Shown: piece after piece, positions 44,506 through 62,922 of the stretch
Numbering within the stretch: position 1 is the stretch's first letter
Layout: each line of letters starts with the position of its first letter
Source of the DNA: Loktanella sp. M215
GTDB taxonomy: Bacteria; Pseudomonadota; Alphaproteobacteria; Rhodobacterales; Rhodobacteraceae
NCBI RefSeq assembly: GCF_021735925.1
Contig: NZ_WMEA01000001.1
Coordinates: 2,758,001-2,822,000, forward strand
Reading direction: 5' to 3'
Length of the DNA stretch: 64,000 nt
Notes under the pieces: generated by a model
The model's input: only the letters and a program-made list of their open reading frames with translations
What the model was told of the DNA's origin: nothing
Database searches by the model: none
Program-made: the position numbers and the translations under genes

Positions 44506-45032
44506 CCTGACCGATGAGAGCAGGACGTCGTTGGTTCCATCGGATTGCACGGTGTTGAAATTGGAGGTGCTCGCGTCTGACATCATGGACGTGTTGAAAG
44601 CCGGCCTGCGCCCTTCACTAAGCGGGGACCTGTGTGTGACGGTCTTACCGAAATTGTCACATGCGATGGGGGCCGTTGGCACAGGCTTGATGCCATTGCA
44701 CAGCAAGCGCTTCAACGCGCGACCGTCGGACGCGCCAGCTCATTTCGATCCGATGCCGGCCAAATGCAGAGTATCGGCGTGGCGGTCTCGGCAAGGACCG
44801 CGACGGTCGGATCGGTCGCGGGGCCGAGCAGCGCCGGCGCAATCAGTGGCACGGTTTTGTCATGCACCATATGCTGGGGTAGGCCCGTTCCCGCCTGTCG
44901 GGGCCGGAACGGTGTGGCGCGGCGCGGCGGGTTCAGCCTTCCGTTGCCAGACCATTGCCGCCGAGATACGCGCAAATTGCACGCGTTGACCGTCATGTGG
45001 TGCCGGCTTGGGGGCGAGACGCCGATGCGGCG
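44506..45032. other. Intergenic stretch without recognisable gene
   Basis: Between the IS remnant and hprA there are open frames on both strands, but none has a recognisable family or a good ribosome site. Together with the adjacent remnant this 0.9-kb gap looks like decayed mobile or transferred DNA. Confidence 0.5.
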
Positions 45033-46001: not shown

Positions 46002-46897
46002 GCGGCCACCCGCTTGCCGGACAGGACGGATTCGGCGGTTTCGCCGAAGGCGGCGGGGTGGGGGACGATGGTGTGGCCCAACTCCCGGATGATATCGACC
46101 TTTTCCTGCGCGGATTCGCCGAAGGCCGAGACGATGGCACCCGCGTGGCCCATGACCTTGCCCTTGGGCGCCGACAGGCCCGCGACATAGGCCATCAGCG
46201 GCTTGGTCATGTGTTCCGCCGCCCACTGGGCTGCCTCCGCCTCTTGCGGGCCGCCGATTTCGCCGATCATGACGACTGCGTCCGTGTCGGGGTCCGCCTC
46301 GAACAGTTTGAGGATGTCGCGGAAGGACGAGCCGTTGATCGGGTCGCCGCCGATGCCGACAGAGGTGGAGACACCGATGCCGCGGGATTTCATCTGGCTG
46401 GCCGCCTCGTATCCCAGTGTGCCAGAGCGTCCGACGATGCCGACGCGGCCGGGCATGTAGATGCTGCCGGGCATGATGCCCATCATCGCCTGACCGGGCG
46501 TGATCGTGCCGGCACAGTTCGGCCCCGTCAGACGCATGCGCATGTCGGACCGGTAGCGGCGCATGTAGCGTTTGACGCGCATCATGTCCTGGGCGGGGAT
46601 GCCGTCGGTGATGCAGGTGCAGTATTTGATGCCTGCGTCGGCGGCTTCCATGATCGCGTCGGCGGCAAAGGGGGGCGGGACGAAAACGATGGATGCCTCT
46701 GCCCCGGTTTCCGCCACCGCGCCCTTCACGGTGTTGAAGACCGGCACGCCAAGGTGCGTGCTGCCGCCTTTGCCGGGTGTGACACCCCCCACGACACGGG
46801 TGCCGTAGTCCATCATTTCCTGCGCGTGGAACGATCCGATGCGCCCGGTAAAGCCCTGCACGAGAACGCGCGTGTCTTTCGTCAGCAAGATTGCCAT
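45998..46897 (-). CDS. mtkB: Malate-CoA ligase (malate thiokinase) alpha subunit
   Basis: With MtkA it converts malate, CoA and ATP to malyl-CoA. The 299-aa product has the succinyl-CoA-synthetase alpha pattern: VQGFTGRIGSFHAQEMMDYG, the CoA-binding GGSTHLGVPVF, GPNCAGTITPGQAMMG and the active-site phospho-His in GHAGAIVSAFGE. Malate rather than succinate is inferred because the pair sits between mcl and hprA, not with sdh/suc genes. Overlaps hprA by 4 nt. Confidence 0.9.
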   Translation of the reverse strand: MAILLTKDTRVLVQGFTGRIGSFHAQEMMDYGTRVVGGVTPGKGGSTHLGVPVFNTVKGAVAETGAEASIVFVPPPFAADAIMEAADAGIKYCTCITDGIPAQDMMRVKRYMRRYRSDMRMRLTGPNCAGTITPGQAMMGIMPGSIYMPGRVGIVGRSGTLGYEAASQMKSRGIGVSTSVGIGGDPINGSSFRDILKLFEADPDTDAVVMIGEIGGPQEAEAAQWAAEHMTKPLMAYVAGLSAPKGKVMGHAGAIVSAFGESAQEKVDIIRELGHTIVPHPAAFGETAESVLSGKRVAA

Positions 46898-46914
46898 GTG
46901 ATCTTTCCTTTCAA

Positions 46915-48093
46915 TCAGGCTGCGTTGCGGTTGACCGACTGAAGCGCCGCGACGGCGGCCTCGGCGGCTTCTTTCAGGGTATCGGCGACGGTGACGTTGG
47001 GTGCCTTTTCCGCGAGGATGCGTTTGCCTTCCTCGACCTTGGTGCCCGACAGGCGCACGATCAGCGGGCAGTTCACGCCGACCTCTGCCAGGGCCTTGAC
47101 CACGCCTTCGGCCACCCAGTCGCAGCGGTTGATGCCCGCAAAGATGTTGACCAGAATGACCTTCACGTTCTTGTCGGCCAGCACCACGCGGAAGGATTTC
47201 GCGACCCGGTCCGGCGAGGCGCCACCGCCGATATCGAGGAAGTTCGCAGGCTCGCCGCCGGCGATCTTGATCATGTCCATCGTCGCCATCGCAAGGCCTG
47301 CACCGTTGATGATGCAGCCGATGTCGCCGTCCAGACCGACATAGGACAGGCCCCGGTCGGACGCGAAGGTCTCGCGCGGGTCTTCCTGGCTCTTGTCGCG
47401 CAATTCCGAGATTTCCGGGCGGCGGAACAGGGCGTTTTCGTCAAAGCTCATCTTGGCGTCGAGCGCGATCACGTCGTTGCCGCTGACGACCAGCGGGTTG
47501 ATTTCCAGCATCGAGGCGTCGAAGTCGCGGAACACGCGGTAGCAGGCGAGGATCGTGTCCACCGCCTTGCCGATCACCGCAGCGTCAAGGCCGAGGCCGA
47601 AGGCAATCTCGCGCGCCTGAAACTCGCGCATGCCAAGGCCCGGATCGACCGAGGCGCGCACGAGGCTGTCCGGCGCATCCGAGGCGATCTGCTCGATCTC
47701 CATCCCGCCTTCGGAGGAGGCGACGATCATGATCCGCTCTTCCTTGCGGTCCAGCACGAAGCCCAGATAGAGTTCCTTGTCGATCTTGACCGTCTCTTCG
47801 ATGTAAAGCCGGTTGATCAGCTTGCCCTGCGGGCCGGTCTGATGCGTCACCAGACGCTGGCCCAGCAGCTTTTCGGCGGCTTCAGACACTTCGGTATCGC
47901 TGTCGCACAGGATGATGCCACCCGCCTTGCCGCGGGCGCCGGAGTGCACCTGTGCCTTGACGACCCAGCGGTCGCCGCCGATTTCGGTGGCGCGGTAAGC
48001 CGCCTGTTCGGGACTGTAGGCCAGCCCGCCGCGCGGCATCCGCACACCGTGCGTCGCCAGCAGTTCCTTGGCCTGGTATTCGTGAATGTCCAT
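46915..48093 (-). CDS. mtkA: Malate-CoA ligase (malate thiokinase) beta subunit
   Basis: The 392-aa product is an ATP-grasp succinyl-CoA-synthetase-like beta subunit: [58 protein letters not shown] and [20 protein letters not shown]. Length matches the MtkA/SucC family. The operon context with malyl-CoA lyase points to malate as substrate. It lies 17 nt before mtkB and 28 nt after mcl. Confidence 0.91.
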
Positions 48094-48121
48094 ATCGTCC
48101 TCCTCCCATGTTCCCGTCGGC

Positions 48122-49066
48122 TTACGCGGCGCGTGCCTTCAGGACCTCCTGCACCGCCAGAATGTTTCTGGCCATTTTCTCGGACGCGGCATCGACCATC
48201 TTGCCGTTCAGGCTGGCTGCACCGCGACCCTGTGCCGCCGCTTCCTCCAGTGCGACAAGGATCTGGCGCGCGCGGTCGACCTCGGCGTCGGTGGGCGAGT
48301 ATTCCTCGTTCGCCAGCGCGATCTGGCTGGGGTGGATCGCCCATTTGCCTTCGATGCCCAGCGCCGCGCCCCGCTTGCAGGCATCGCGGAACCCGTCCGG
48401 GTCCGAGAAGTCGCCGAAGGGGCCGTCGATCGGGCGGATGCCGTAGGCGCGGCAGGCGGTGGTCATACGGCTGAGCGCCGCATGCCACTGGTCGCCGGGA
48501 TAGTTCGGGTTCAATCCACCGATGTTGACGGTCCGCGCCTTGTGAAACGCGGCATAGTCGGCCACGCCGAAGTGCATCGCCTCCAGCCGGGACGGGGCGG
48601 CGGCAATGGCCTCGACGTTGGCCATGCCCAGAGGTGTCTCGATCAGCGCCTCGATGCCGATCTTGCGCTTGAGGCCCTTGGCCATCTCGATCTGGTTCAG
48701 CATCGCCTCGACCATGTAGACGTCGGCGGGCAGGCCCACCTTGGGGATCAGGATGACGTCGAGCTTGTCGCCTGCCTGTTCCACCACGTCGACCACGTCG
48801 CGGTACATGTAGTGGGTATCAAGGCCGTTGATCCGCAGGGACGTGACCTTGTTCTTGCCCTTCCAGTCGATGTCGTTCAGCAGCTGGATCGCGTTCTTGC
48901 GGGCTTGTTCCTTGTCATTGGGGGCGACAGCGTCTTCCAGATCGAGGAAGACGACATCAGCTTCGGAGTCGGCGGCCTTTTCGACCATGGACGGGTTGGA
49001 CGCGGGCACCGCGAGGGTCGAGCGTTGCAGACGCGTGGCACGCATGCCGTGAACGGTATGGGACAT
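48122..49066 (-). CDS. mclA: Malyl-CoA lyase
   Basis: It splits malyl-CoA into glyoxylate and acetyl-CoA, closing the serine cycle. The 314-aa product is of the CitE/Mcl type: [35 protein letters not shown] (metal-binding Asp/Glu), [35 protein letters not shown] and [19 protein letters not shown]. The '[10 protein letters not shown]' segment and total length fit Mcl rather than citrate lyase beta. Confidence 0.93.
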
Positions 49067-49093
49067 TGTGGTGTTTCCTGTCTGGAAAGAGGA

Positions 49094-50290
49094 TCAGGCG
49101 GCGGCCTTTTTCTGGGCCGCGTCCGCCGAGGTCTGGCTGTAGTGGGTGATCGCGGCACCGACGCCGGAGCCGGCCTCGATCTTGATGCCCGTATCGATCA
49201 GCGCCATTTCGGCGACCGACAGGGCGGTGCAGACCATGCCTTCGTTCAGCCAGCCCAGATGACCGATGCGGAACACCTTGCCCGCCACCTTGGACAGACC
49301 CGACCCCAGCGATGTGTTGTATTTGCTGTAAGCGGTCGAGATCACGTCGCGGGCGTCGAACCCCTCCGGCACCATGATTGCGGACACGGTGTCGGAATAC
49401 CACTTCTCCTCTTTGGCACACAGCTCCAGCCCCCATGCGGCGACGGCCTTGCGCACACCCGTGGCCAGCCGGTGATGGCGCGCCCAGATGTTTTCCAGCC
49501 CTTCGTCCAGCATCATGTCGCAGCTGGTGTTCAACCCGTGCAGCAGTTGCGTCGCGGGCGTGTAGGGGAAATAGCCGTTGTCGTTGTTGGCGATCATGTC
49601 CTCGAAGCTGAAGAAAGTGCGCACGTAACCGGCGCGCTTGTTCGCCTCCAGCGCCCACTTGCTGACCGACAGCAGGCCAAGGCCTGCGGGCAGCATGAAG
49701 CCTTTCTGCGATCCCGACACGGCGCAGTCGACGCGCAACGCATCCTGATCGAAGGGGATCGAGCCCACGGCGCTGACGCCGTCCACCATCAGAAGCGCCG
49801 GGTGCTTGGCCGCGTCCAGCGCCTCGCGCACCGCCTTGACGTTCGAGGTGACGCCGGTTGCGGTCTCGTTATGGGTGACGAAGACGGCCTGGATCTCGTG
49901 GGCGATGTCGGCGTTCAGACGCTCTGCGTATTGCTCGACCGGGACACCGGTGCCCCACTCGCAGTCGATCAGTTCAACGTCCAGACCAAGGCGCGTCGCC
50001 ATGTCGGCCCAGAGGTGCGAGAACTGGCCGAACCTGCTCATCAACACCTTGTCACCGGGGGACAGGGTGTTCTGGATCGCCGCCTCCCACGCGCCGGTGC
50101 CGGAGGAGGGGTAGAGGAAGACGCGGCCGGTGGTGTTGCGGAAGACCTTCGCGACCTTGTCGAACAGGGGCTTGGTGAAGTCCGGAAAATCGGGGGCGCG
50201 CATGTCCTGCATGGACACGTTCATCGCCATCCGGACCTGATCGGGTACGTTCGTCGGACCGGGGATATAAAGGTGGTTAAAGCCGGGCAT
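49094..50290 (-). CDS. sgaA: Serine-glyoxylate aminotransferase
   Basis: It turns serine and glyoxylate into hydroxypyruvate and glycine. The 398-aa class V PLP enzyme opens MPGFNHLYIPGPTNVPDQVR and has VFLYPSSGTGAWEAAIQNTL, VDGVSAVGSIPFDQDALRVD and the PLP lysine in AVSGSQKGFMLPAGLGLLSV. I start at ATG 50290, with GGAGGA 8-9 nt upstream; the open frame extends 54 codons further but crosses the promoter region. First gene of the five-gene minus-strand operon, preceded by the shared 15-nt motif. Confidence 0.95.
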   Translation of the reverse strand: MPGFNHLYIPGPTNVPDQVRMAMNVSMQDMRAPDFPDFTKPLFDKVAKVFRNTTGRVFLYPSSGTGAWEAAIQNTLSPGDKVLMSRFGQFSHLWADMATRLGLDVELIDCEWGTGVPVEQYAERLNADIAHEIQAVFVTHNETATGVTSNVKAVREALDAAKHPALLMVDGVSAVGSIPFDQDALRVDCAVSGSQKGFMLPAGLGLLSVSKWALEANKRAGYVRTFFSFEDMIANNDNGYFPYTPATQLLHGLNTSCDMMLDEGLENIWARHHRLATGVRKAVAAWGLELCAKEEKWYSDTVSAIMVPEGFDARDVISTAYSKYNTSLGSGLSKVAGKVFRIGHLGWLNEGMVCTALSVAEMALIDTGIKIEAGSGVGAAITHYSQTSADAAQKKAAA

Positions 50291-50403
50291 GCGGGGTTCC
50301 TCCCATGGAATACTGCAATTCAATCTGACCTCAGGATGCGGGCAGCGGGCCGCTGTCAGAACACCTTGCAGGATAGGAAACGCCGTCGCAGCGGGGGGGG
50401 CGA

Positions 50404-50418
50404 CCCTACCCGATCGGG
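50404..50418 (-). promoter_or_regulatory. Shared serine-cycle motif, sgaA copy
   Basis: Minus strand reads CCCGATCGGGTAGGG, about 115 nt before sgaA. It matches 14 of 15 bases of the ppc copy and 13 of 15 of the fhs copy, all in the same orientation relative to the gene. CCCGATCGGG is a perfect palindrome. A possible -10, TATCCT, lies 28 nt downstream, so the motif would sit near -50. Probable activator site; which protein binds is inference. Confidence 0.7.
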
Positions 50419-50449
50419 GTTCGGGCCACTGGCGGCGGGAATGCAGAAA

Positions 50450-50475
50450 CACCCCGCAGCGGGGGCTGCGGGGTG
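50450..50475 (-). terminator. Terminator after the LuxR-type regulator gene
   Basis: CACCCCGCAGC (50450-50460) and GCTGCGGGGTG (50465-50475) are perfectly complementary with a 4-nt loop; TTTC follows on the minus strand. It begins 21 nt past the regulator stop and insulates sgaA. Confidence 0.75.
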
Positions 50476-50496
50476 CGCCGGGCCAAGGGCCTTGCG

Positions 50497-51138
50497 TCAG
50501 TCTGCGGCTTCGCGGGAAAAGACGGCGACGGCCATGGCGCGGTTATGCACGCCCAGCTTGTCGTAAAGATTCTTGAGGTGATATTTGACCGTGTTTTCGG
50601 AAATGCCGGTGCGGTTGGCGATCTGCTGGTTGGTCCAGCCGCGCGCCAGCACCGACAGCAATTCGCGCTCTCGCACTGTCAGCTGCGCCAGCGGCGTGTC
50701 GTTGATCGTGGTCACGTCGATGAAGGGCACGCAAAGCCTGCCGTTGGCGACCGCATGCAGGGTATCAAACAGGACGGCGGGTTCGTCGAACTGATAGCAG
50801 AAGCCCAGCGCGCCAAGGCGCACGGACAGGCGCACGTGGCCCAGATCGCGGTTGTTGGAAAAGACGGTGACGGGCAGGGCGCAGCCCCGCGACTTGATGG
50901 CCCGCAGCACATCGGGGGCCGTCATGTCGGTCAGTTGCCAGGCCAGCACGACAACATCCACCGATGCGGGTGTCACGGCCAGCAGCTGCTCTCCGCTGTC
51001 GACGCTGCCGATCAGGCGAAAGCGGCTGTCGTTCGCAAAGCAACCGGTCAGGGCGGACACGACGAATGGATTGGCCTCGGCCAGCAGGATTCGCACGGGT
51101 TCTGCCACCGCGGCGCGCGGTACAGTCGAAACGGTCAT
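50497..51138 (-). CDS. LuxR/NarL-type regulator with degenerate receiver domain
   Basis: The 213-aa product has a receiver-like domain (about 15-130) and a LuxR DNA-binding domain (about 148-205: LTVRERELLSVLARGWTNQQ then IANRTGISENTVKYHLKNLY). The receiver lacks the phosphorylation chemistry: the phosphoacceptor Asp is Ala66 (VVVLAWQL), the acidic pair is Glu21-Ala22, and the conserved Lys is Gln116 (GALGFCYQ). Such pseudo-receivers respond to other cues or act constitutively. I start at ATG 51138, with GGAGGAG 5 nt upstream. It lies between the sga operon and fhs and is the best candidate controller of the serine-cycle genes. Confidence 0.88.
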   Translation of the reverse strand: MTVSTVPRAAVAEPVRILLAEANPFVVSALTGCFANDSRFRLIGSVDSGEQLLAVTPASVDVVVLAWQLTDMTAPDVLRAIKSRGCALPVTVFSNNRDLGHVRLSVRLGALGFCYQFDEPAVLFDTLHAVANGRLCVPFIDVTTINDTPLAQLTVRERELLSVLARGWTNQQIANRTGISENTVKYHLKNLYDKLGVHNRAMAVAVFSREAAD

Positions 51139-51303
51139 CGGTCTCCTCCCGCTTTCGCGTCGTGGGGGACGGCAACCGGCTGTATCCCTCCCGCCGGTTG
51201 TTTTCCCTGACCTTAGGTTGATCCGCAAAGGCGCTTGAGTCTACTAGGTCTTTTGGTTGTATCACAATGCGTTACGGCATACGGACGTATACCGGGTTTC
51301 CCG

Positions 51304-51318
51304 CCCGACCGGGTAGTG
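51304..51318 (+). promoter_or_regulatory. Shared serine-cycle motif, fhs copy
   Basis: CCCGACCGGGTAGTG, 122 nt before fhs, in the 301-nt gap between the divergent regulator and fhs. It is in the same orientation relative to fhs as the other copies are to their genes. Because the gap is shared, the site could also control the regulator gene itself. I see no other gene in this gap. Confidence 0.65.
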
Positions 51319-51439
51319 GGGCAACATCCGGCAGGACGGAAACTTGCGGCAAACCGGCAGTCGGTGTCATGTGTCGATTGCCGAGGCGTTGTGGTTCATG
51401 GCAGCACCGTGACAGACACGGGTTTTGGGAGGAACTTGA

Positions 51440-53116
51440 ATGGCGGTGAAGACGGATATCCAGATTGCACGCGAGGCAATCAAACAGCCGATACAGGACG
51501 TGGGCGCCCGTCTGGGCATCGGGGCTGTCGACATGCTGCCTTACGGCCATGACAAGGCCAAGATCAGCCAGAGTTTCATCTCGGGTCTGCAGGACCGGCC
51601 GAACGGCAAGCTGATCCTTGTGACGGCGATCAACCCCACGCCCGCGGGCGAAGGCAAGACCACGACGACCGTGGGACTGGGCGACGGGTTGAACCGGATC
51701 GGCAAAAAGGCCGCCATCTGCATCCGAGAGGCGTCGCTGGGGCCGAACTTCGGCATGAAGGGCGGGGCCGCAGGCGGCGGCTACGCGCAGGTTGTCCCGA
51801 TGGAGGACATGAACCTGCACTTTACCGGCGATTTCCACGCCATCACCTCTGCGCACAACCTGCTGTCGGCGATGATCGACAACCACATCTACTGGGGCAA
51901 TGCGCTGGACATCGACCTGCGGCGCGTCGTCTGGCGGCGGGTGCTGGACATGAACGACCGCGCCCTGCGCGATGTGGTGACCTCGCTGGGCGGTGTCGCC
52001 AACGGCTTTGCCCGGCAGACCGGGTTCGACATCACGGTGGCCTCCGAGGTCATGGCGATCCTGTGCCTTGCGCGCGATCTCAAGGATCTGGAAAAGCGTC
52101 TGGGCGACATGATCGTGGCCTATACCCGCGACAAGCAGCCCGTCTATTGCCGCGATCTGAAGGCCGATGGTGCCATGACCGTCCTGCTGAAGGACGCGAT
52201 GCAGCCCAATCTGGTGCAGACGCTGGAAAACAACCCGGCCTTCGTCCACGGCGGCCCCTTCGCCAATATCGCCCACGGCTGCAATTCGGTCATCGCCACG
52301 ACGACGGCGCTGAAACTGGCGGATTACGTGGTGACAGAGGCGGGATTCGGCGCCGATCTGGGCGCCGAGAAGTTCATGAACATCAAGTGCCGCAAGGCCG
52401 GTCTGTCACCCAGCGCCGTCGTCCTCGTCGCAACCGTGCGCGCGATGAAGATGAACGGCGGCGTGGCCAAGGCGGACCTTGGTGCGGAAAACGTGACCGC
52501 CGTGCAGGACGGCTGCCCCAACCTGGGTCGCCATATCGCCAACCTGCAGGGCTTTGGCGTGCCGGTGATCGTGGCGATCAACCATTTCTCGGGCGATACA
52601 GAGGCCGAGGTGCAGGCCGTCCGCGACTATGTCGCGCAACAGGGGGCAGAGGCGGTGCTGTGCAAGCACTGGGCCGACGGCGGTGCCGGGATCGAGGAGC
52701 TGGCCCACAAGGTCGTGGCCCTTGCCGACAGCGATCAGGCTGATTTCCGCACGCTTTACCCCGACGAGATGCCGCTGTTCGACAAGATCGAGACCATCGC
52801 GACCCGGATCTATCACGCCGACGGCGTCGCCGCCGACGGCAAGATCCGCGCGCAACTGAAAGAATGGGAGGATCAGGGCTACGGCCACCTGCCGATCTGC
52901 ATTGCCAAGACGCAGTATTCCTTCACCACCGACCCGAATCGCCGTGGCGCGCCGACGGGCCACACATTGCCGGTGCGCGAGGTGCGCCTGTCTGCCGGTG
53001 CGGGCTTCGTCGTGGCCATCTGCGGCGAGATCATGACCATGCCCGGCCTGCCGCGACATCCTGCGTCAGAGACCATTCGCCTCGACTCTGACGGCCAGAT
53101 CGAAGGGTTGTTCTGA
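51440..53116 (+). CDS. fhs: Formate-tetrahydrofolate ligase
   Basis: It activates formate to 10-formyl-THF using ATP, the entry of C1 units into assimilation. The 558-aa product has the nucleotide loop [19 protein letters not shown], the signature [40 protein letters not shown] and [20 protein letters not shown]. Length is normal. GGGAGGA lies 6-7 nt before the ATG. First gene of fhs-folD; preceded by the shared motif. Confidence 0.97.
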
Positions 53117-53156
53117 CGATGGTCCCGACCTCCTGCAAGACGACAAGGAATCCCCG

Positions 53157-54059
53157 ATGACTGCAACGATCCTCGACGGCAAGGCCTTTGCCGCAACCGT
53201 CCGCGACAAGGTCGCGACCCATGTGACCAAGCTGAAGACCGATCACGGCATCACCCCCGGTCTGGCCGTCGTGCTGGTGGGCGAGGACCCGGCCAGCCAG
53301 GTCTACGTCCGCGCCAAGGGCAAGCAGACGGTCGAGGTCGGGATGAACTCGTTCGAACACAAGCTGGACGCCGAGGTGTCAGAGGCGGACCTGCTGGCGG
53401 TGGTGCATCAGCTGAACGACGATCCGGCCGTGCACGGCATCCTCGTGCAGCTGCCTCTTCCTGCGCACCTCGATTCCGACCTGATCATCAATGCGATCAA
53501 TCCGGCGAAGGATGTGGACGGGTTCCATATCTCAAACGTGGGCCTGCTGGGGACGGGGCAGAAAAGCATGGTGCCCTGCACGCCGCTGGGTTGCCTGATG
53601 ATGCTGCGCGACCATCACGGATCGCTTTCGGGGCTGGAAGCGGTGATCCTCGGCCGGTCCAACATCGTGGGCAAGCCGATGGCACAACTGCTGCTAAATG
53701 ACAGCTGCACCGTCACCATCGCCCATTCCCGCACGAAGGATCTTGCGGACGTCGTGCGCCGCGCGGATATCGTGGTCGCCGCCGTGGGCCGGCCAGAGAT
53801 GGTGCCGGGCGACTGGATCAAGCCGGGTGCGACGGTCATCGATGTCGGCATCAACCGTATTCCGGCGCCCGACAAGGGCGAGGGGAAGACGCGGCTGGTG
53901 GGCGACGTGGATTTCGACAGCTGCGCCGCCGTCGCGGGGGCCATCACGCCCGTTCCTGGCGGTGTCGGTCCGATGACCATCGCCTGCCTGCTGGCCAACA
54001 CCCTGACCGCCTGCTGCCGTGCCAACGGCGTGGCAGAACCGGAGGGGCTGACGGCCTGA
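53157..54059 (+). CDS. folD: Methylene-THF dehydrogenase / methenyl-THF cyclohydrolase
   Basis: The bifunctional enzyme reduces formyl-THF to methylene-THF, the substrate of GlyA. The 300-aa product has [20 protein letters not shown] with the catalytic Tyr/Lys region, the family signatures [16 protein letters not shown] and [19 protein letters not shown]. It lies 40 nt after fhs. Here it takes the role that mtdA/fch play in Methylobacterium. Confidence 0.96.
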
Positions 54060-54201
54060 TGGACGCCACGACGGGGGGCAAGGCAGGCCCCCCGCGCCGG
54101 ACGCAGCAGATCCTGACCGGAACATGGTGGCATTGGCTTACAGCCCGGCTTAACCTGACCGCAGGGCTGCGCTGGCGGCCCCGACATTCCGGGAGGTTTT
54201 C

Positions 54202-54498
54202 ATGTCCGTTTCCTTGCAGGTGCTGTATCCGACGACCGGTGGCACGACATTCGACCACGACTACTACGCTGACACACACTTGGGACTGGTGGACACACAT
54301 ATGGCACCGCACGCCCAACGCATCGTCGTCGTGAAAGGCACCGGCGATGCTGCGCCTTTTCACGCGATCGCCACGTTTGTCTTTGCCGACGCTGCCGCGC
54401 GCGACGCCGCGCTGGCTGCGGCCGGTCCGGCGCTGGACGACATTCCGCACTTCTATTCGGGCGCTCCCGTGGTTCTGACGGGCGACGTGCTGGACTAG
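54202..54498 (+). CDS. EthD family protein
   Basis: The 98-aa product has the EthD ferredoxin-like fold pattern: VSLQVLYPTTGGTTFDHDYY then HLGLVDTHMAPHAQRIVVVK, with the conserved His. EthD was first found in ether degradation but the family is broad and poorly defined. GGGAGG precedes the ATG. It lies 142 nt after folD, whose intervening DNA shows no convincing gene, and it may be read from the fhs promoter. Confidence 0.85.
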   Translation: MSVSLQVLYPTTGGTTFDHDYYADTHLGLVDTHMAPHAQRIVVVKGTGDAAPFHAIATFVFADAAARDAALAAAGPALDDIPHFYSGAPVVLTGDVLD

Positions 54499-54506
54499 GC
54501 CGTTTG

Positions 54507-54536
54507 CACGGCGCCGCGCCATCGCGCGGCGCCGTG
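54507..54536. terminator. Bidirectional hairpin between ethD and glyA
   Basis: Perfect 13-bp arms CACGGCGCCGCGC (54507-54519) and GCGCGGCGCCGTG (54524-54536) with loop CATC lie between two convergent genes, 8 nt from each stop. There is no long U-tract, but stability and position indicate termination of both transcripts. Confidence 0.7.
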
Positions 54537-54543
54537 ACGGCTG

Positions 54544-55839
54544 TCAGTAGATCGGGAACCGTCCCATCAGTGCCTCGGCCTGACCGCGTACCTCTGCCTC
54601 GACCCCTGCGTTGTCGTCACCGTTGGCGACCAGACCGTCGATGACCTGCAGGATCATCCGGCCCACCTCGCGCGCCTCGGCCTCGCCCAGACCGCGTGTC
54701 GTGATCGCGGGCGTGCCGAGGCGGATGCCCGACGGTTTCATCGGCGGGGCGGGGTCGAAAGGAATGCCGTTCTTGTTGCAGGTGATGTGCGCGCGTCCCA
54801 GTGCCTCTTCGACCACCTTGCCGGACAGGCCCTTGGGGCGCAGATCCGCCAGCATCAGGTGCGTGTCGGTGCCGCCCGACACGATGTCCACGCCGCCCTG
54901 CTGCAGCGTGTCCGCCAGCGCGCGGGCGTTGTCGACCACCTGCCTGATGTAGTCCTTGTAGGCGGGCTGAAGGGCCTCGCCAAAGGCCACGGCCTTGGCG
55001 GCAATGACGTGCATCAAGGGGCCGCCTTGCAGGCCGGGAAAGACGGCTGAGTTCAGTTTCTTGCCCAGTTCCTCGTCATTCGACAGGATGATCCCGCCAC
55101 GCGGGCCGCGCAGGGTCTTGTGCGTCGTGGAGGTCACGACATCGGCGAAAGGAAGGGGCGAGGGGTGCATGCCACCGGCCACCAGACCTGCGAAGTGGGC
55201 CATATCCACGAACAGCTTCGCGCCCACGGAATCCGCGATGGCACGGAAGGCGGCAAAGTCGATGTGACGCGAATAGGCGGACCCGCCGGCGACGATGACC
55301 TTGGGTTTATGCTCTTCCGCCAGCTGCGCGGCCTGATCCATGTCGAGCAGATGGTCGTCCTCGCGCACGGAATAATGCACGGCGTTGAACCATTTGCCCG
55401 ATTGATTGACGCTCGCCCCGTGGGTCAGGTGACCGCCCGCGGCAAGGTTCAGGCCCAGAAACGTGTCGCCGGGCTGCATCAGCGTCATGAAGACGGCCTG
55501 GTTGGCCTGCGATCCGGAATTGGGCTGCACGTTGGCATAGGTGCAGCCGAACAGCTGCTTGAGGCGATCGCGGGCCAGATCCTCGGCCTGATCGACATAC
55601 TGGCAACCGCCATAGTAGCGGCGGCCCGGATAGCCTTCGGCATATTTGTTCGTCATAACAGAGCCCTGCGCGTCCATGACGGCGCGGCTGACGATGTTTT
55701 CCGACGCGATCAGCTCGATCTCGTCGCGCTGGCGGCCCAGTTCACGGGTGATCGTGCCCTGCACCTCCGGGTCCGTGTCTGTCAGCCGGCTGTGGAAAAA
55801 AGCGTGGCGCGCGTCCACGGCCTTCGTTGCGATGTTCAT
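54544..55839 (-). CDS. glyA: Serine hydroxymethyltransferase
   Basis: GlyA adds the C1 unit of methylene-THF to glycine to make serine, the carbon-fixing step of the serine cycle. The 431-aa PLP enzyme has [60 protein letters not shown] and the PLP lysine in [20 protein letters not shown]. It lies 24 nt after ppc and is probably a dedicated serine-cycle copy; whether a housekeeping copy exists elsewhere cannot be seen. Confidence 0.97.
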
Positions 55840-55863
55840 GGTTCTCTCTCCCTGAGGTTTTGT

Positions 55864-58611
55864 TCAACCGGTCCAGCCCAACCCGCTGGATATGACGTGA
55901 ATGGACATGAGCAGGCTGTCGACGTCCGCGGGGTCCGCGCTGTCCGCGCCGCCCGCGCGACGGACCCGGTCAAGCAGGTCGATCTGCATCCGGTGGACGC
56001 CGATCATCTGGGGGCGGATCGCGTCGGCCTGCGCGCGGTAGTCCGGGAACCGCCGCGACAGGTCGCCCCCGCCGGTGACGGCAAGGATCATGTTGCGCGT
56101 CAGGTCGTATTCCCGCTCGATCTTGGCAAAGACCGCGTCGCGCACGGCGTCGTCCTGCACCAGCCCGGCGTAGGCGCGGGCGATGGCCATGTCGGCCTGG
56201 AACAGCACCTTTTCAGCCTCGTCGATCACCAGCCGGAACAGGCGCGACCGTTCGAACATGCGGCGCAGCAGGTCCAACCCGTCGTCGCCGCGCACCCGGG
56301 TAAAGGACGACAGGGCCGACCCGATGCCGTACCAGCCGGTCAGCATGTGGCGGTTCTGGCTCCACGCGAAAACCCAAGGGATCGCGCGCAGGTCGCTGAG
56401 GTCGCGCACGCCGGTGCCAAAGCGTTTCGCAGGGCGCGAGCCGATCTTCAGCAGCGCCAGTTCCTCGACGGGGCTGGCCGCGTTGAAATAGTCGATGAAG
56501 CCCTGCGTGCCTGTCAGGTCGAGGTATTTCACCTGGCTCAGACCGGCGAGGGCCGCCAGCGCCTCGTTGAACTCCGGCGAATCCGACGACCGGCGGTCGG
56601 TCGGCTGTTCCAGCGTATGCCGCAGTACGGCGGCGGTCAGGAATTCGAGGTTGCCCAGCGCCGTGCCGCGGTTCGCGAACTTGGCCGAGACGATTTCGCC
56701 CTGTTCGGTCACGCGCAGGCGGCCGTCGACGGTGCCTTCGGGCTGGGCGGCAATGGCGCGCCCGGCGGGGGCGCCGCCCCGGCTGACCGATCCGCCGCGG
56801 CCGTGAAAGAACGAGATGGCGATGCGATGCCTGGCACCGATGCGCTGCACGGCGGTCTGCGCCTTCGACAGCTCCCAGTTGGAGGTCAGAAACCCGCCGT
56901 CCTTGTTGCTGTCCGAATAGCCCAGCATGATTTCCTGCGCGTCGCCGTGATCGCGGATCGCGCGGCGCACGGTGCGGTTGGCGAACAGAGTCTCCAGTAT
57001 GTCGGTCGCGGCGCGTAGGTCGTCGATCGTTTCCAGCAGCGGCACGACCTCAATGTGCAGCGGCGCGTCCTGCGCGGCGTCGGCGGCGGTCGCCGTCCAG
57101 CGGGCCAGCAGATAGACCGCGAGGATGTCGTCGGCCGAGGTCGTCATCGACAGGATGAAGGCACCGATTGCGCCGCGCTCGCGGGCGCGTGTCTCTGCCA
57201 TCAGGCGGAACAGGTCGAGCGTCTCTACCGCTTCCTCCGGCAGGTCAGCGGTATCCATATCCAGCGCCGTGTCGTGTTGCAGCACATGGGCGATGACCTG
57301 CGACCACGCCGGGCTGCCTTCATCCGGCACCACCTCGCCGCGCGCGCGCAGGACGGCGGCGACGGTGCGGTTGATGACCGTGGCGTTCTGCCGGATATCG
57401 AGGGACACGGTATGAAAGCCGAAGGTCTCGATCCGGCGCATCAGGGGCCGGGTGCGCCGGGCCGAGGTGTTCTGTGCCCCCACCGCCAGCAGGCCGGCGT
57501 CCAGCGCCGTCACGGCCGTCAGGAACTCGCGCGCGTTGCGGAAGGGGGTCGCCTGCGGCGTCTCGCCCGCATCCGCAGCAATCGTGGCATTCAGCCGGAT
57601 CAGCAGGGCCGTGGCGCCTTGCCGGAACGGCTCTGCCGCGTTGTGCCACCGGGTCGTGTCGGCCGCCGGCCCGCACAGGTCGAGCTGTTCCGCCACCATC
57701 GCCAACAGCGGCTGCGGCACGTCGGCCACCGACAGGCTGAGCGACAGGTCATGGCACATCTGGTCCAGCACTGGCCGGTAGGACGCCAATGCCGCGCGCC
57801 TGTATGCGCGCAAAGCCGCGCGGGTGACATCGGCGGTCACATGCGGGTTGCCGTCGCGGTCGCCGCCGATCCAGCTGGAAAACCGCAGGAAGGCACCGGG
57901 GGTCGCGTCATAGGACAGACGGCGCAGGGCGTCGGTCAGCATCTCGTGCAGGGTCGGCACGGCGTCATAAAGGACTTCGCCAAAGAAATAGAGGCCCCAG
58001 GCCACCTCTTGTGCCACAGTGGGCTTTTCCAGACGCAACTCTCCGGTCAGCCACAGAAGCTCGATTTCAGAGGTCAGCGCCTGTAGATGGGCGTCTTCTT
58101 CGCGCGGGGCCCAGCTGCGCCCCAGAAGGTCCGTCAGGCGGCGATAGATGCGGCGATGGTTGGCCAGTACCGTGACGCGCTTGGTCTCGGTCGGGTGTGC
58201 GGTCATCGTCGGGCCGACCCGCAGCCGGCGCACCGCCGCGTTGACCGTGGCGGCAGAGGCGCCGGACTGCGCGACCCGGCCCAGCACTTCGGCAAAGGAT
58301 CCCGCGATATCCGCCGCTTCGCCCGCGCGTTCGGTCGTCCGGCGCTGCTGCACCGCTTCGAACTCGCGCGCGATGGCCAGAAGCTGATGCCATGTGCCCA
58401 GCAGTTGCAGCGCCAGAAACCGGTCGCTGCGCGCCACAAGGTTGATCGGTGTATGGCCGTCCAGCAGACGCGCCACGTCGGGGATCTGGCCTTGCGTCAC
58501 CGCGATCAGGCTGCGCTTGAGGATCGCGCGCACGCCAGAGGCATCGCCGCTCGGTGCGGGGTCGGTGGCATCTGTCCGTGGCGCTGGCGCCCGTGTTTTG
58601 GTCTGGAGCAT
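55864..58611 (-). CDS. ppc: Phosphoenolpyruvate carboxylase
   Basis: It carboxylates PEP to oxaloacetate, the second carbon-fixation step of the serine cycle. The 915-aa product has the catalytic His in VGPTMTAHPTETKRVTVLAN, FHGRGGSVSRGGAPAGRAIA, the catalytic Lys region in IMLGYSDSNKDGGFLTSNWE and the C-terminal NRHMLTGWYGIGSAL. The terminal GW(T)G replaces the usual NTG end, as in some serine-cycle bacteria. I start at ATG 58611; the 13 extra upstream codons are unlikely. First gene of ppc-glyA. Confidence 0.96.
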   Translation of the reverse strand: MLQTKTRAPAPRTDATDPAPSGDASGVRAILKRSLIAVTQGQIPDVARLLDGHTPINLVARSDRFLALQLLGTWHQLLAIAREFEAVQQRRTTERAGEAADIAGSFAEVLGRVAQSGASAATVNAAVRRLRVGPTMTAHPTETKRVTVLANHRRIYRRLTDLLGRSWAPREEDAHLQALTSEIELLWLTGELRLEKPTVAQEVAWGLYFFGEVLYDAVPTLHEMLTDALRRLSYDATPGAFLRFSSWIGGDRDGNPHVTADVTRAALRAYRRAALASYRPVLDQMCHDLSLSLSVADVPQPLLAMVAEQLDLCGPAADTTRWHNAAEPFRQGATALLIRLNATIAADAGETPQATPFRNAREFLTAVTALDAGLLAVGAQNTSARRTRPLMRRIETFGFHTVSLDIRQNATVINRTVAAVLRARGEVVPDEGSPAWSQVIAHVLQHDTALDMDTADLPEEAVETLDLFRLMAETRARERGAIGAFILSMTTSADDILAVYLLARWTATAADAAQDAPLHIEVVPLLETIDDLRAATDILETLFANRTVRRAIRDHGDAQEIMLGYSDSNKDGGFLTSNWELSKAQTAVQRIGARHRIAISFFHGRGGSVSRGGAPAGRAIAAQPEGTVDGRLRVTEQGEIVSAKFANRGTALGNLEFLTAAVLRHTLEQPTDRRSSDSPEFNEALAALAGLSQVKYLDLTGTQGFIDYFNAASPVEELALLKIGSRPAKRFGTGVRDLSDLRAIPWVFAWSQNRHMLTGWYGIGSALSSFTRVRGDDGLDLLRRMFERSRLFRLVIDEAEKVLFQADMAIARAYAGLVQDDAVRDAVFAKIEREYDLTRNMILAVTGGGDLSRRFPDYRAQADAIRPQMIGVHRMQIDLLDRVRRAGGADSADPADVDSLLMSIHVISSGLGWTG

Positions 58612-58697
58612 GATCGGTGACCTTGCGTCGGGGGTTGACCCCCATGACACACCGATTGTCCCGCCCGCGACAGAACCGTTGGTATAGAAACCCCCCG

Positions 58698-58730
58698 CCG
58701 ACGGGTAGGGTCCTGCCTTACCCGATCGGG
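58698..58730 (-). promoter_or_regulatory. Shared serine-cycle motif, ppc copy (double site)
   Basis: Minus strand: CCCGATCGGGTAAGG (58716-58730), then after 5 nt CCCTACCCGTCGG (58698-58710), an imperfect inverted copy of the same motif. Downstream, TATACC (58681-58686 reversed) could be a -10. It sits 87-119 nt before ppc. The remaining DNA between ppc and the methyltransferase remnant (58731-58969) shows nothing recognisable. Confidence 0.7.
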
Positions 58731-59233
58731 CAGATCACGCGCAAGACAAGGCAATGGCGGGCCGTCCGCGCGCGGCTTTGGCGCGCGAGACTGGCGAAAG
58801 ACCGGATCGCAGTGATGCGGCCGCCCCGCGATGCGCGCCCGTACCAATTGCGGGCCCGATGGTCGCACCGGTGTCAAGGCTCTGCGCCGTGGCGCATGCG
58901 CGGGCGCGTATTTCCGGGTCCGCGAGGGCAGGGCCGTTAGTCGCGGGGGAGAAGTCCGCTGCCGCTGGGTCAGGCGGCGAACCGTCCGCCTGCGACGATC
59001 CGGGCCATGCCCATGGTTGTCAGCGTCGCCAGCAAGGGCCGGACGGTCGTTGCGCGGCCAGCGGGCAAACTGGTGGGCGACCTGTGCGGGGAAGGCCACT
59101 CCAAGATCGCCCAGAGTGCGGTGCACGGCGGACATCTGATCTGGCAAAGACTTTGAGGTGCCCCCCGAAAACTGGACACTGACGTAAGCTCCGATTTGCT
59201 GTCTGTTGATCTTCACCACGAAGGAGATCGAAG

Positions 59234-59527
59234 ATGTCGAAACGAAAGCAGCACGCCCCTGAGTTCAAGGCGAAGGTGGCGCTTGAGGCGCTGAAAGGTG
59301 AGGCGACGGTGTCGGAGCTGGCGAGCCGGTTCGGCGTGCATCCGACGATGATCAACCAATGGAAACGTGCGCTGCTGGATGGCGCGTCCGGTGTCTTTGA
59401 ACGCGGCGGCCGCAAGACGCCGGTCATCGATGAAGACCAGGTCAGGGATCTGCATGCCAAGATCGGGGAGCTGGCGGTGGCCAACTCTTTTTTGGAAAGA
59501 AAGCTCAAACCTTGGGGCGGGAAGTGA
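59234..59527 (+). CDS. IS3-family transposase OrfA
   Basis: The 97-aa helix-turn-helix protein (HAPEFKAKVALEALKGEATV, then SELASRFGVHPTMINQWKRA) binds the IS ends. A leucine-zipper-like C-terminus follows. It ends with the GTGA overlap that starts OrfB. Confidence 0.92.
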   Translation: MSKRKQHAPEFKAKVALEALKGEATVSELASRFGVHPTMINQWKRALLDGASGVFERGGRKTPVIDEDQVRDLHAKIGELAVANSFLERKLKPWGGK

Positions 59528-60387
59528 GGCGCAGCATGGTCGAGCGCGACCATCCGGACCTGTCGATTGGCCAGCAGTGCGCGCTTCTGTCGATACCGCG
59601 GTCGTCGTTTTATTACATGCCGCAGGGTGAGACGGAGCAGAACCTCGCGCTGATGCGGCTGATCGACGTGCAATTCCTGGAGACGCCCTTCTTCGGCGTG
59701 CGCCAGATGACGTGGCACCTGCGCAACGAGGGACACGCGGTGAACGAGAAGCGCATCCGTCGGCTTATGCGCCTGATTGGTTTGATGCCAATCTACCAGA
59801 AACCCAACACCAGCAAGCCGGCGAATGGGCACAAGACCTATCCCTACCTCTTGCGCGGGCTGCGCGTAGAGCGGCCCAATCAGGTTTGGTGCGTGGACAT
59901 CACCTACCTGCCGATGCGCAGAGGGTTTCTCTATCTGGTGGCGATCATGGACTGGCACACCCGAATGGTTCTGGCCTGGCGGATCTCGAACACGCTGGAC
60001 GCCGACTTCTGCGTCGACGCGCTGAACGAGGCAATCTATCGGTTCGGGCCACCTGACATCATGAACAGCGATCAGGGATCGCAGTTCACATCGTTTGCCT
60101 GGACAGATCGCCTGCGGCGGTCGGGCGTCCGTATATCGATGGATGGCAAGGGCCGCTACTTGGACAACATCTTCATCGAGCGCCTGTGGCGCACGCTGAA
60201 ATACGAGTGCGTCTATCTGCATGTCTGGGAGACCGGGTCTCAGGCCCGCGCGGGTGTCCGGACATGGATGGGGTTCTACAATCACCGCCGCCCGCACAAA
60301 GCCCTTGGCGGCCAACCACCGGCCGTAGTCTACTCGCTGAAAGTCGAAGCAACGCAACCCGATCAGCAGGAGCAGATCAGAGCTTAG
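59524..60387 (+). CDS. IS3-family transposase OrfB (DDE integrase)
   Basis: The catalytic subunit. The DDE residues are visible: Asp in VWCVDITYLPMRRGFLYLVA, Asp in IMNSDQGSQFTSFAW and Glu in LDNIFIERLWRTLKYECVYL. A HTH_21 region precedes it (FGVRQMTWHLRNEGHAVNEK). I place the start at GTG 59524, overlapping the OrfA TGA; a TTG at 59512 or production by -1 frameshifting as an OrfAB fusion are alternatives. Confidence 0.9.
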   Translation: MRRSMVERDHPDLSIGQQCALLSIPRSSFYYMPQGETEQNLALMRLIDVQFLETPFFGVRQMTWHLRNEGHAVNEKRIRRLMRLIGLMPIYQKPNTSKPANGHKTYPYLLRGLRVERPNQVWCVDITYLPMRRGFLYLVAIMDWHTRMVLAWRISNTLDADFCVDALNEAIYRFGPPDIMNSDQGSQFTSFAWTDRLRRSGVRISMDGKGRYLDNIFIERLWRTLKYECVYLHVWETGSQARAGVRTWMGFYNHRRPHKALGGQPPAVVYSLKVEATQPDQQEQIRA

Positions 60388-61845
60388 AAAGCGCCAGATC
60401 CTGTCCAAGGGAAGGGGAGCACCTCACTTCGCCCAGGGCGCCTTGACAGCGGTCGCCGCGACACCGAGGTCCATGGCCCCCTGATCCGGCACAGCGAACA
60501 GTAGCGACAGCGGTGTCTTTCGGTCGTTCAGATGAGGCTCCAGCACACGGCTGTTGAAGGTCTGGCGCAGGAAGGTCGTCGTGATGAAGCCCATGCGGCG
60601 GGTGTCCTTGGCCTTTGCCTTGTCGCTCCCGAGCTTCAAGGCGCGGGTGGCGAGGGCTGCCTTCTCCCACCAGAATATGACGAAATCGGCGCTTTGCGGC
60701 ATCTTGGGTTAGGCTGTCCACAGCGCCTCGGCATAGCCGTCGCCCAGTGCGTCCCGCATCCGGCTGGCGCCGATGAAGGGCGGGTTGCCGACGATGAAAT
60801 CCGCCTCTGGCCATTTCGCGGGTTTCGGGTTGGCGTCGTCGATGATCTGCCCCCGCGCATCGGGGTCAGGGTCGGGGATGGGCTGGCTGGTGATCGTGGT
60901 CTCGCCGTCCCAGCGGGTGACGGGCGCGCCGTCCGCGTCCAGCCAGGGCGTCACCGCGTCCCATGTCCGCACGGCGTCCCGGTTTTCGATGGTCTTGATA
61001 TCGCGCAGGACAGGCTCTGCCGGACTGGCCTTGCCGCGGGTGCAAAAATGCCATTGCAGGTAGCCGATCCACAGCACCAGTTCCGCCACCGCGGCGGCCC
61101 ATGGGTTCAGCTTGATCCCCAGAAACGGGTGCGGATCTACCGTATGCCCTTCGAGCGAGAGTGACACCTGATCCTCGCCCCGCTGGGTCATGACGACGGT
61201 GACTTCGCCTTCCAACCGCTACATCGGTTCAAGCGCCACTTACAGGAAGTTACCGGACCCGCAGGCGGGGGCCAGCACCCGGATCGCGCAGATGCGGCGG
61301 TGAAAGGCCTTGACGAGGTTTAGCGCGTCCTTCTGCCGGCTCTGATCGGTCAGGATCAGAGCAGAGGCCTGCACGGCGACCCAGTCAGCGCGCAGCGGTT
61401 CCATCACGGTCGGGTTCACCAGCCGCTTGACATAGGCGGGGGGGGGTAGTGGGCGCCCAGCTTGTGCCGGTCCTTTGGCGGCAGGGCGCATTCCAGCAGA
61501 GTGCCGAAGTGAGCTGCTGCCGGTTTTGTGGACACGAAGATAAGATCGTGACCATTGAACTGGAGAGTGGATATGACGAGACGGAAGTTTAGCCGCGAGT
61601 TCAAGATCGAGGCGGTAAGGCTGGTGACCGAGCGAGGCGTTGCGGTCGCTCAGGCGTGCCGGGACCTGGATCTTGCGGAGAGCGTGGCTCGCGTCGCTGG
61701 ATGCGGGAATTGATGGGAGCGCCTGTTGCGGCGTTTCCCGGCAATGGCTTGCAACGCGCAGAATTGGCCGAGATTGCGACCCTGAAGAGAGAGGTCGCCA
61801 AGCTCAAGGCGGAGCGTGACATCCTAAAAAAGGGCGAGCCATGTG

Positions 61846-61870
61846 CGCCATTGGTTCGAGCACAATGGCG
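61846..61870. repeat. Palindrome H1 inside the decayed IS
   Basis: CGCCATTG and CAATGGCG (8-bp perfect arms) around GTTCGAGCA. The surrounding about 38 nt (61836-61873) recur in inverted orientation at 62397-62436. GCGAGC stands directly on both sides (61834-61839 and 61868-61873). Confidence 0.75.
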
Positions 61871-61936
61871 AGCGCCTACTTCGCGCGGGAAGCGACATGA
61901 CGTTCGCTTTCGTGGCAAAGCATCGGCACATTTGGC

Positions 61937-61968
61937 CCCTCTCGGCGATGCACGCATCGCCGAGAGGG
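61937..61968. repeat. Palindrome H4 inside the decayed IS
   Basis: CCCTCTCGGCGATGC and its exact complement form a 15-bp perfect stem with the 2-nt loop AC. It falls in the transposase frame between HIWPLS and MCAVLGVS, where relatives have no extra residues as far as I recall. Confidence 0.75.
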
Positions 61969-62396
61969 CAACGGGATCAGCTGGATGTGCGCGGTGCTGG
62001 GCGTCTCCCCGATCCGGCTTTCATGCCTGGCTCAGAAGGCCGATAAGCGAACGCGCGGCTCAGGATGCAAAGCTCGTCCAGTCGATCGACAAGAGCTTCA
62101 AGGCCAGCGATCGCACCTATGGCGCCCGCCGGGTCTGGCGTGACGTTCTGGAAGAAGGTCTCGCATGTGGACTGCACCGGATCGAACGCTTGATGCGGCT
62201 AAATGCAATGAGAGCGCGGCCCAAACGCCGCGGGAACCCGAAGGATGACGGCGAGCGGTCGGTCATCGCCGACAACATCCTTGACCGCGACTTCACAGCA
62301 GACCGGCCGAACCAGAAGTGGCTTGCCGACTTCACCTACATCTGGACCGCAGAGGGCTGGCTCTACGTGGCGGTCGTGCTGGACCTGTTCTCCAGG

Positions 62397-62436
62397 GTTC
62401 GCCATTGTGCTTGAACCAATGGCGCATCAATGGCTC
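62397..62436. repeat. Palindrome H2 inside the decayed IS (inverted copy of H1)
   Basis: CGCCATTG (62400-62407) and CAATGGCG (62417-62424) around TGCTTGAAC. Read in reverse complement it matches H1 over about 38 nt with few differences. It interrupts the transposase right after LDLFS. Confidence 0.75.
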
Positions 62437-62504
62437 ACCGTCGGCTGGTCCATGAAGGCGGAACGGGATGCTTCACTGGTCATGGATGCGCTGATCCCTC
62501 TCAT

Positions 62505-62541
62505 GGTTTGCCAGTCATTCCACCGGAATGACCTGCAAACC
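62505..62541. repeat. Palindrome H3 inside the decayed IS
   Basis: GGTTTGCCAGTCATTCC and GGAATGACCTGCAAACC pair at 15 of 17 positions with loop ACC. It lies between the MDAL and WRRGKADALLHHSDQG stretches of the transposase. Confidence 0.72.
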
Positions 62542-62922
62542 ACTGCCGGGCAGCGGATGGCCGTCTGGCGGCGCGGAAAGGCTGACGCGCTGCTCCATCA
62601 CTCAGACCAAGGATCGCAATATACCAGTGAGCAGTTTCAGCGCCTGCTGCTGGACAACGGCATCATTTGCCGGGTGAGCCGTGCGGGCAATGTGTGGGAC
62701 AACTCAGCAATGGAGAGCTTCTTCTCGTCGCTGAAGATCGAACGGACAGCCCGCAAGGTCTACCGCACCCGTGACGCGGCACGCGCCGACGTGTTCGACT
62801 ACATCGAGCGCTTTTACAATCCGAGGCGACGGCATTCGAAGCTGGGCTATCTCAGCCCTATGGCGTTCGAGGACCGAGCTATGCAAACCTAACCCGGTGT
62901 CCACGAAACCGGCAGCAGCTCA

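Follow-up and report, generated by a model that had tools for sequence, protein, structure and literature searches.

In the 64,000-nt stretch of the Loktanella sp. M215 genome analysed here (contig NZ_WMEA01000001.1, positions 2,758,001 to 2,822,000; hereafter the window), a short conserved box precedes three apparent serine-cycle transcription units. We consider it, with a probability of roughly 0.78, to be the operator site of a serine-cycle regulon that is small and local; the LuxR/NarL-type protein encoded at 50497-51138 would bind it and thereby activate the operons. The box heads the apparent units sgaA-mcl-mtkA-mtkB-hprA-like (50290 to 45033), fhs-folD and ppc-glyA, whose extents are predicted, and it precedes genes for building biomass from one-carbon (C1) compounds; the luxR-type regulator gene sits between the sgaA and fhs units. 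An operator of a serine-cycle regulon, perhaps bound by this protein, had been proposed in an initial annotation of the window. Sites that are unique in the genome and conserved in other genera lend this proposal support, and the co-occurrence of the box with this LuxR family points to the LuxR-type protein as candidate binder. The conserved operator is real, and it is very probably that of the adjacent regulator.

The 15-mers that the initial annotation had placed before sgaA, fhs and ppc were found at the positions and on the strands it gave. All three have the same orientation relative to their respective genes, and their distances of 104-121 nt from the start codons fall within the range of about 85-125 nt claimed for them. 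The sites are as follows:

50404-50418, minus strand: sgaA 15-mer, 113 nt from the ATG at 50290; its core half-site CGGGTAGG (50405-50412) is conserved in relatives.
51304-51318, plus strand: fhs 15-mer, 121 nt from the ATG at 51440, with core CGGGTAGT; the promoters of relatives were compared.
58716-58730, minus strand: ppc 15-mer, 104 nt from the ATG at 58611, with core CGGGTAAG (58717-58724).
58702-58724, no strand assigned: perfect inverted repeat CGGGTARGG-n5-CCYTACCCG, here CGGGTAAGG-cagga-CCCTACCCG, the complete dyad form, of which the ppc box is one half.

The site at 51304 is shared with the divergent luxR gene: it stands some 165 nt upstream of luxR and, relative to that gene, points the other way. 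The functional core comprises only 8 bp, the half-site CGGGTAGG, and is frequently accompanied by an inverted copy. It displaced the 15-mer as the operator unit on the basis of a de novo 8-mer count and of the promoters of relatives.

The de novo count covered 28 sgaA, fhs and ppc promoters from 15 loci spanning genera, together with 200 shuffled sets. The top 8-mer was CGGGTAGG/CCTACCCG, present in 18 of the 28 promoters, whereas the highest count of any shuffled 8-mer was 8. Rhodobacteraceae relatives carry the element at syntenic places, mostly about 104-123 nt before the start codons; its left part drifts, and GGGTARG is mostly retained. Before ppc, GGGTA starts 112 or 121 nt from the start codon in the window, Loktanella and Puniceibacterium, and 89 nt from it at locus L119. 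In Rhodobacteraceae the box is found again upstream of all three genes (sgaA, fhs and ppc), in Rhizobiales upstream of sgaA, its constant target. Exact CGGGTARG precedes fhs at 7 of 12 Rhodobacteraceae loci including the window (7 of the 11 others, the window fhs carrying CGGGTAGT) and ppc at 4 of 6, the window again included; most of the other fhs and ppc promoters in this family have one-letter variants such as CGGGTAGT, TGGGTAGG, CGGGTGGG and CGGGTAAC. Whole-genome scans of 18 relatives found the dyad CGGGTAGGN{5,6}CCYAYCCG at seven places in six genomes, all seven just upstream of sgaA, with one place in the reversed control. Mesorhizobium often has several copies of the box in head-to-tail order, up to five at one locus; Mesorhizobium loti DSM 2626 has five tandem GGGTAGG boxes upstream of sgaA.

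The box also follows the regulator gene. A genome scan with the LuxR-type protein kept 80 of 224 loci encoding a relative, and at least one further cluster gene was present in the fetched DNA at 74 of these 80 (folD alone in seven). At 55 of 59 LuxR-bearing loci, with the window and one plasmid record included, the 300 nt upstream of sgaA contain CGGGTARG, and the sgaA promoters of LuxR-bearing loci hold 125 such sites against a shuffle mean of 1.1 and maximum of 4. As for the four exceptions, both Thalassococcus halodurans loci (L060, L061) carry TGGGTAGGG with an inverted partner, and those of Ensifer (L070) and Sinorhizobium (L095) have near variants. Upstream of genes within the operons, used as controls, CGGGTARG was absent throughout (mcl 0/58, mtkA 0/56, folD 0/25, glyA 0/14).

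For a complementary control, 385 genomes of the class were drawn and their sgaA loci taken; within such a draw, a LuxR match at E<=1e-55 occurred only in the window's own genome. Among class genomes without such a match, CGGGTARG preceded sgaA at 1 of 29 loci. Wider flanks were fetched for 19 of these loci and for one further genome. At two of them, L167/L217 (38%) and L184/L227 (44%), a divergent luxR adjoins sgaA, and GGGTAGG dyads that the CGGGTARG count had passed over are present at both; among the other 18, one (L212) carries a lone GGGTAAG. Taken together, box and luxR gene go together, with one exception seen. At L227 the box precedes a small reading frame ahead of sgaA.

A distant branch of the regulator (L034-L052; 32-39% identity) extends this association. 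GGGTARG/CYTACCC stands before luxR at 12 of its 19 loci (shuffle mean 1.3, maximum 5), and GGGTARG occurs inside the luxR gene at 1 of 19. The luxR genes of this branch, many of them from Rhodobacteraceae, usually lie beside mcl, with a divergent aminotransferase-like frame in those translated. Since the distant branch mostly keeps the phosphorylatable aspartate (Asp) that the window's clade has lost, and yet has the box before luxR, the operator code may predate the loss of Asp.

Promoter geometry was analysed in 57 sgaA promoters with GGGTARG. Of 46 gaps between directly repeated boxes, 42 correspond to a 13-bp spacing. The spacer to an inverted partner is 5 nt in 34 promoters and 6 nt in 8, and in 44 of the 57 a -10-like CTATCC/TTACCC starts 34 nt from where the box does. 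The inner half-site stands about 17 nt before the -10-like element at a rigid offset; the outer half-site is the better conserved, and the inner one is degenerate before sgaA and fhs in the window. Two putative promoters of the window show a comparable arrangement:

50370-50375, minus strand: -10-like TATCCT of the putative sgaA promoter, 36 nt after the GGGTAGG start.
58681-58686, minus strand: -10-like TATACC of the putative ppc promoter, 37 nt after the GGGTAAG start.

Because of the fixed offset to the -10-like element, the dyad centre would lie near -40 and the inner half-site over the -35 region in the predicted sgaA and ppc promoters, which is the position of a class II activator. The regulator is accordingly pictured as binding CGGGTAGG half-sites, often two in inverted order (CGGGTAGG-n5/6-CCYAYCCG). 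Once bound, it would stand in for the missing -35 box and recruit RNA polymerase in class II-type activation of sgaA-mcl-mtkA-mtkB-hprA and ppc-glyA. Its action would extend to fhs-folD, and perhaps to its own gene, through the shared 51304 site. Straight after the sgaA -10-like element lies a stretch like GCAAGGTGTTSTG (50357-50369, minus strand), conserved from Rhodobacteraceae to Mesorhizobium, which is perhaps the transcription start region.

Within the 5,197,521-base Loktanella genome, the 15-mer consensus CCCGAYCGGGTARKG has exactly three matches, all of them at these sites, and none in the reversed control. These counts are partly circular because the consensus was written from the three sites, and the independent evidence for the box is its conservation in other species. 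The random scatter through intergenic DNA that would have spoken against an operator was not seen, the scan giving no exact match besides the three. Five places match the consensus with one mismatch, and all overlap mechanically called open reading frames (ORFs) of at least 120 codons. Pfam searches at three of them supported a gene at L004 (ferritin-like) and none at L006 or L008; L005 and L007 look gene-like by inspection. Matches with two mismatches are at chance level (109 against 141 in the reversed control). Allowing up to three mismatches, near-dyads occur 13 times forward and 17 times reverse, where the controls give 25 and 17, and only the ppc site is perfect; the palindrome CTACCCGNNCGGGTAG with up to two mismatches occurs 14 times against 122 for its control.

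Further sites had been expected before genes for glycerate kinase, enolase, formaldehyde oxidation and the ethylmalonyl-CoA pathway. The exact whole-genome scan found none, with weaker sites possible, and in the checks made the five one-mismatch ORF places had no tie to these functions. A wider regulon in this genome was not found by these scans: the one-mismatch places overlap ORFs, and near-dyads and palindromes do not exceed controls. A second GGGTAR-YTACCC place, at C1:3566085 before a glyoxalase-like gene, was set aside as chance or a terminator.

The regulator itself combines a C-terminal GerE helix-turn-helix (HTH) domain (Pfam 1.3e-18, residues 152-205) with an N-terminal receiver, for which Response_reg scores exactly at its cut-off (30.2 bits), and it aligns with NarL over residues 13-204. 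A66 is aligned to the NarL Asp and Q116 to the NarL Lys, so that both the phosphorylatable Asp at the end of beta-3 and the conserved Lys are lacking. Position 66 is G, A or S in 85 of 87 near-set rows, the window included; of the remainder, L184 stops short of the position and L167, a distant-branch protein, has D. Distant relatives have D in 18 of 20 and G in two. The fuller copy of the L184 locus, L227, encodes a divergent regulator relative with apparently E at the Asp position. Around the lost phosphorylation pocket, W67, C114 and Q116 are invariant in a 37-row alignment (Q116 37/37). The predicted structure has a mean predicted local distance difference test (pLDDT) score of 86.5 and a predicted template modelling (pTM) score of 0.62, and it matches the solved structures of LiaR, ChrA, VraR, RcsB and NarL. 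The protein thus fits the NarL/FixJ family by its GerE HTH and receiver fold, and the aspartate-less receiver (ALR) class by its missing Asp.

Because the receiver has no phosphorylatable Asp, the regulator is probably controlled by a non-kinase input, be it a metabolite, another protein as partner or the amount of regulator present. More tentatively, the clade may have lost kinase control while retaining the older GGGTAGG code, and the receiver pocket (Asp to G/A/S, Lys to Gln, invariant Trp67 and Cys114) may have become a sensor of a C1 or glyoxylate-cycle metabolite. If so, the switch of the assimilation pathway would be a one-component metabolite sensor with a two-component regulator as its ancestor.

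Several observations weigh against the operator reading or narrow it. In the window, the sgaA and fhs boxes have no good second half-site, and the fhs promoter shows no clear -10 at the offset seen for sgaA and ppc; among the 57 sgaA promoters, 13 have no inverted partner by the pattern used. GGGTAR-YTACCC pairs number two in the Loktanella genome against six in the control, so that only their location is informative. The same applies to CCCVAHCGGGTARG in the 18 relatives' genomes, whose 19 places in 11 genomes give no excess over the 15 of the reversed control. Ten of the 19 lie within serine clusters, including 9 of 9 in five close Rhodobacteraceae, and seven of the nine off-cluster places overlap long frames; the other two, L203 and L206, look intergenic. 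Exact CTACCCGNNCGGGTAG occurs at two places in these genomes, below the 14 of the control, both preceding luxR (Aminobacter carboxidus and Pseudaminobacter manganicus). The box precedes luxR in 12 of 85 cases, the exact box is missing at 7 of the 19 distant-branch loci, and the L162/L212 sgaA locus has CGGGTAAG with luxR not found within 8 kb. Many of the relative loci are from Mesorhizobium and are not independent. In Rhizobiales the box precedes fhs at 0 of 6 loci and ppc at 1 of 28, and the ppc absence is real because these ppc genes are 51-53% identical. The expected conservation upstream of orthologues therefore held before sgaA in other genera and before fhs and ppc in Rhodobacteraceae, and failed for fhs and ppc at most Rhizobiales loci. 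Since the box is mostly missing there, the three-unit regulon is a Rhodobacteraceae form.

Among the alternatives, there is a minor though appreciable chance that the LuxR-type protein binds the box and yet represses, or works through arrays, instead of acting as a class II activator. The dyad overlaps -35, where binding can block polymerase, tandem arrays exist, and NarL represses as well as activates according to the excerpted text of PMC4549865. The same excerpt has NarL activating napF and yeaR from -40 to -49 and from -38 to -47, respectively, and the putative sgaA and ppc promoters, judged by eye, have no -35 box apart from the operator, which favours activation. It is rather unlikely that the box is a genuine serine-cycle operator and the target of some other transcription factor, with the luxR-type gene merely co-inherited along with the cluster. 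The shortness of the half-site leaves some room for this, as does the boxed sgaA locus with no luxR found nearby. It fits poorly, however, with the mostly boxless sgaA loci of genomes without a close LuxR (1/29), with the divergent luxR genes and GGGTAGG dyads at L167/L217 and L184/L227, with the box at the distant branch's own luxR promoters (12/19), and with a half-site and an HTH that are both NarL-like.

We find it very improbable that the box belongs to a constitutive promoter, or to one read by an alternative sigma factor, with the inner half-site as its -35 box and no regulator site involved. The rigid 17-nt spacing to the -10-like element is what such a promoter would show, yet it is the outer half-site that is better conserved, the inner one being degenerate in two of the window's promoters; moreover, the box occurs up to five times, 12-13 bp apart, in some Mesorhizobium promoters, and the strict dyad is found nowhere else in the 18 genomes. 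An RNA leader element, or a chance likeness of GC-rich intergenic DNA, is a scarcely credible explanation of the repeat: GC-rich palindromes are common in such genomes, as the reversed controls attest, but conservation across genera is far above shuffles, and the box lies upstream of the predicted -10 and would not be transcribed from there. The search for a riboswitch or other RNA in 45000-60000 gave only two Rfam matches, both sub-threshold and irrelevant. Binding of the box by the adjacent regulator, with activation, is the reading that we favour.

The closest known system is NarL of E. coli, for which the excerpted text of PMC4549865 gives an engineered high-affinity site, TACCCCTAAAGGGGTA, and action on napF and yeaR from about -40. 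The likeness comprises a near full-length sequence match, the fold, the half-site TACCC/GGGTA as in TACCCCTAAAGGGGTA and positions near -40 as that excerpt reports them; we count the resemblance of the half-site to TACCCCTAAAGGGGTA in favour of the regulator as binder. Unlike NarL, the window regulator has a receiver without the phospho-Asp and Lys, and its targets would be C1 assimilation genes. The operators also differ, in that half-sites here extend to CCTACCCG and the box does not match the NarL 7-2-7 operator, in which inverted heptamers lie 2 bp apart as in TACCCCTAAAGGGGTA. Pairs in NarL orientation (TACCC/GGGTA) are 4 nt apart here where complete (CTACCCGNNCGGGTAG, at two places in 18 genomes), whereas the commoner pair has GGGTA outermost with a spacer of 5-6 nt, or consists of direct repeats every 13 bp.

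Among the routes of one-carbon assimilation the serine cycle is a major one, and the sole characterised regulator of it met in the literature consulted is QscR of Methylobacterium. QscR is a LysR-type regulator of M. extorquens AM1 whose DNA binding responds to pathway metabolites, as the excerpt of PMC3486813 describes. Like the proposed regulator it acts on serine-cycle operons, and it belongs to another protein family. Among the scanned proteins of 45033-58611 there is no LysR-type match, the sole regulator there being LuxR-type; the search for LysR was confined to this interval.

A closer counterpart is scyR, the 'serine cycle regulator' of Paracoccus aminovorans pAMV1 and Aminobacter, a putative transcription regulator for which the figure legend in PMC8235418 mentions no binding site. 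On a plasmid of P. aminovorans JCM 7685, a response regulator that is a 38% relative lies between sga and mcl with the box CCTACCCG before it, and the 30.6 kb retrieved around the serine cluster encode no other response regulator. We infer that this one is ScyR, and the family of the window regulator is probably the 'ScyR' of Paracoccus and Aminobacter. The P. aminovorans relative keeps the Asp that the window's clade has lost.

Regulators with aspartate-less or pseudo-receivers are known from RitR, JadR1, RedZ and VpsT, in which key phosphorylation residues are missing and control is by redox state, ligand or multimeric state (excerpts of PMC4395418 and PMC12632262). They share this trait with the window regulator and differ from it in that none is tied to C1 assimilation in those excerpts. 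The remark in the initial annotation that no described site of this sequence is known for C1 assimilation agrees with searches of an open-access library, in which we found no description of the box; the available parts of PMC12403871, PMC5934484 and PMC4543880 do not mention it. The regulon is new and belongs to a kind already known. Box and regulator offer a cis-code open to testing, and a regulator candidate, for marine Rhodobacteraceae as well as for Mesorhizobium, Aminobacter and related rhizobia. Sister branches with and without a phosphorylatable receiver seem to share the operator, which makes them useful for the question of how pseudo-receivers are controlled.

The genes of the cluster are as follows:

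45033-45995, minus strand: hprA-like, dehydrogenase of hydroxypyruvate/glyoxylate reductase type.
45998-46897, minus strand: mtkB, succinate/malate-CoA ligase alpha.
46915-48093, minus strand: mtkA, malate-CoA ligase beta.
48122-49066, minus strand: mcl, malyl-CoA lyase type (HpcH/HpaI).
49094-50290, minus strand: sgaA, serine-glyoxylate aminotransferase type; BhcA is the top-scoring model, with a score under its cut-off.
50497-51138, minus strand: LuxR/NarL-type regulator with receiver and GerE HTH, the proposed box binder.
51440-53116, plus strand: fhs, formate-tetrahydrofolate ligase.
53157-54059, plus strand: folD.
54544-55839, minus strand: glyA, serine hydroxymethyltransferase, downstream of ppc.
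55864-58611, minus strand: ppc, phosphoenolpyruvate carboxylase.

Against the BhcA (aspartate-glyoxylate) model, the product of sgaA, a putative serine-glyoxylate aminotransferase, scores 577 bits with a cut-off of 650. In one Mesorhizobium genome, the frame next to a boxed sgaA (L160, 1971-3011) encodes a protein that we take to resemble a heme-dependent oxidative demethylase. Just past the cluster in the window lie transposase-like frames (61656-62892, plus strand), with HTH_21 and an rve integrase core at 61656-62414.

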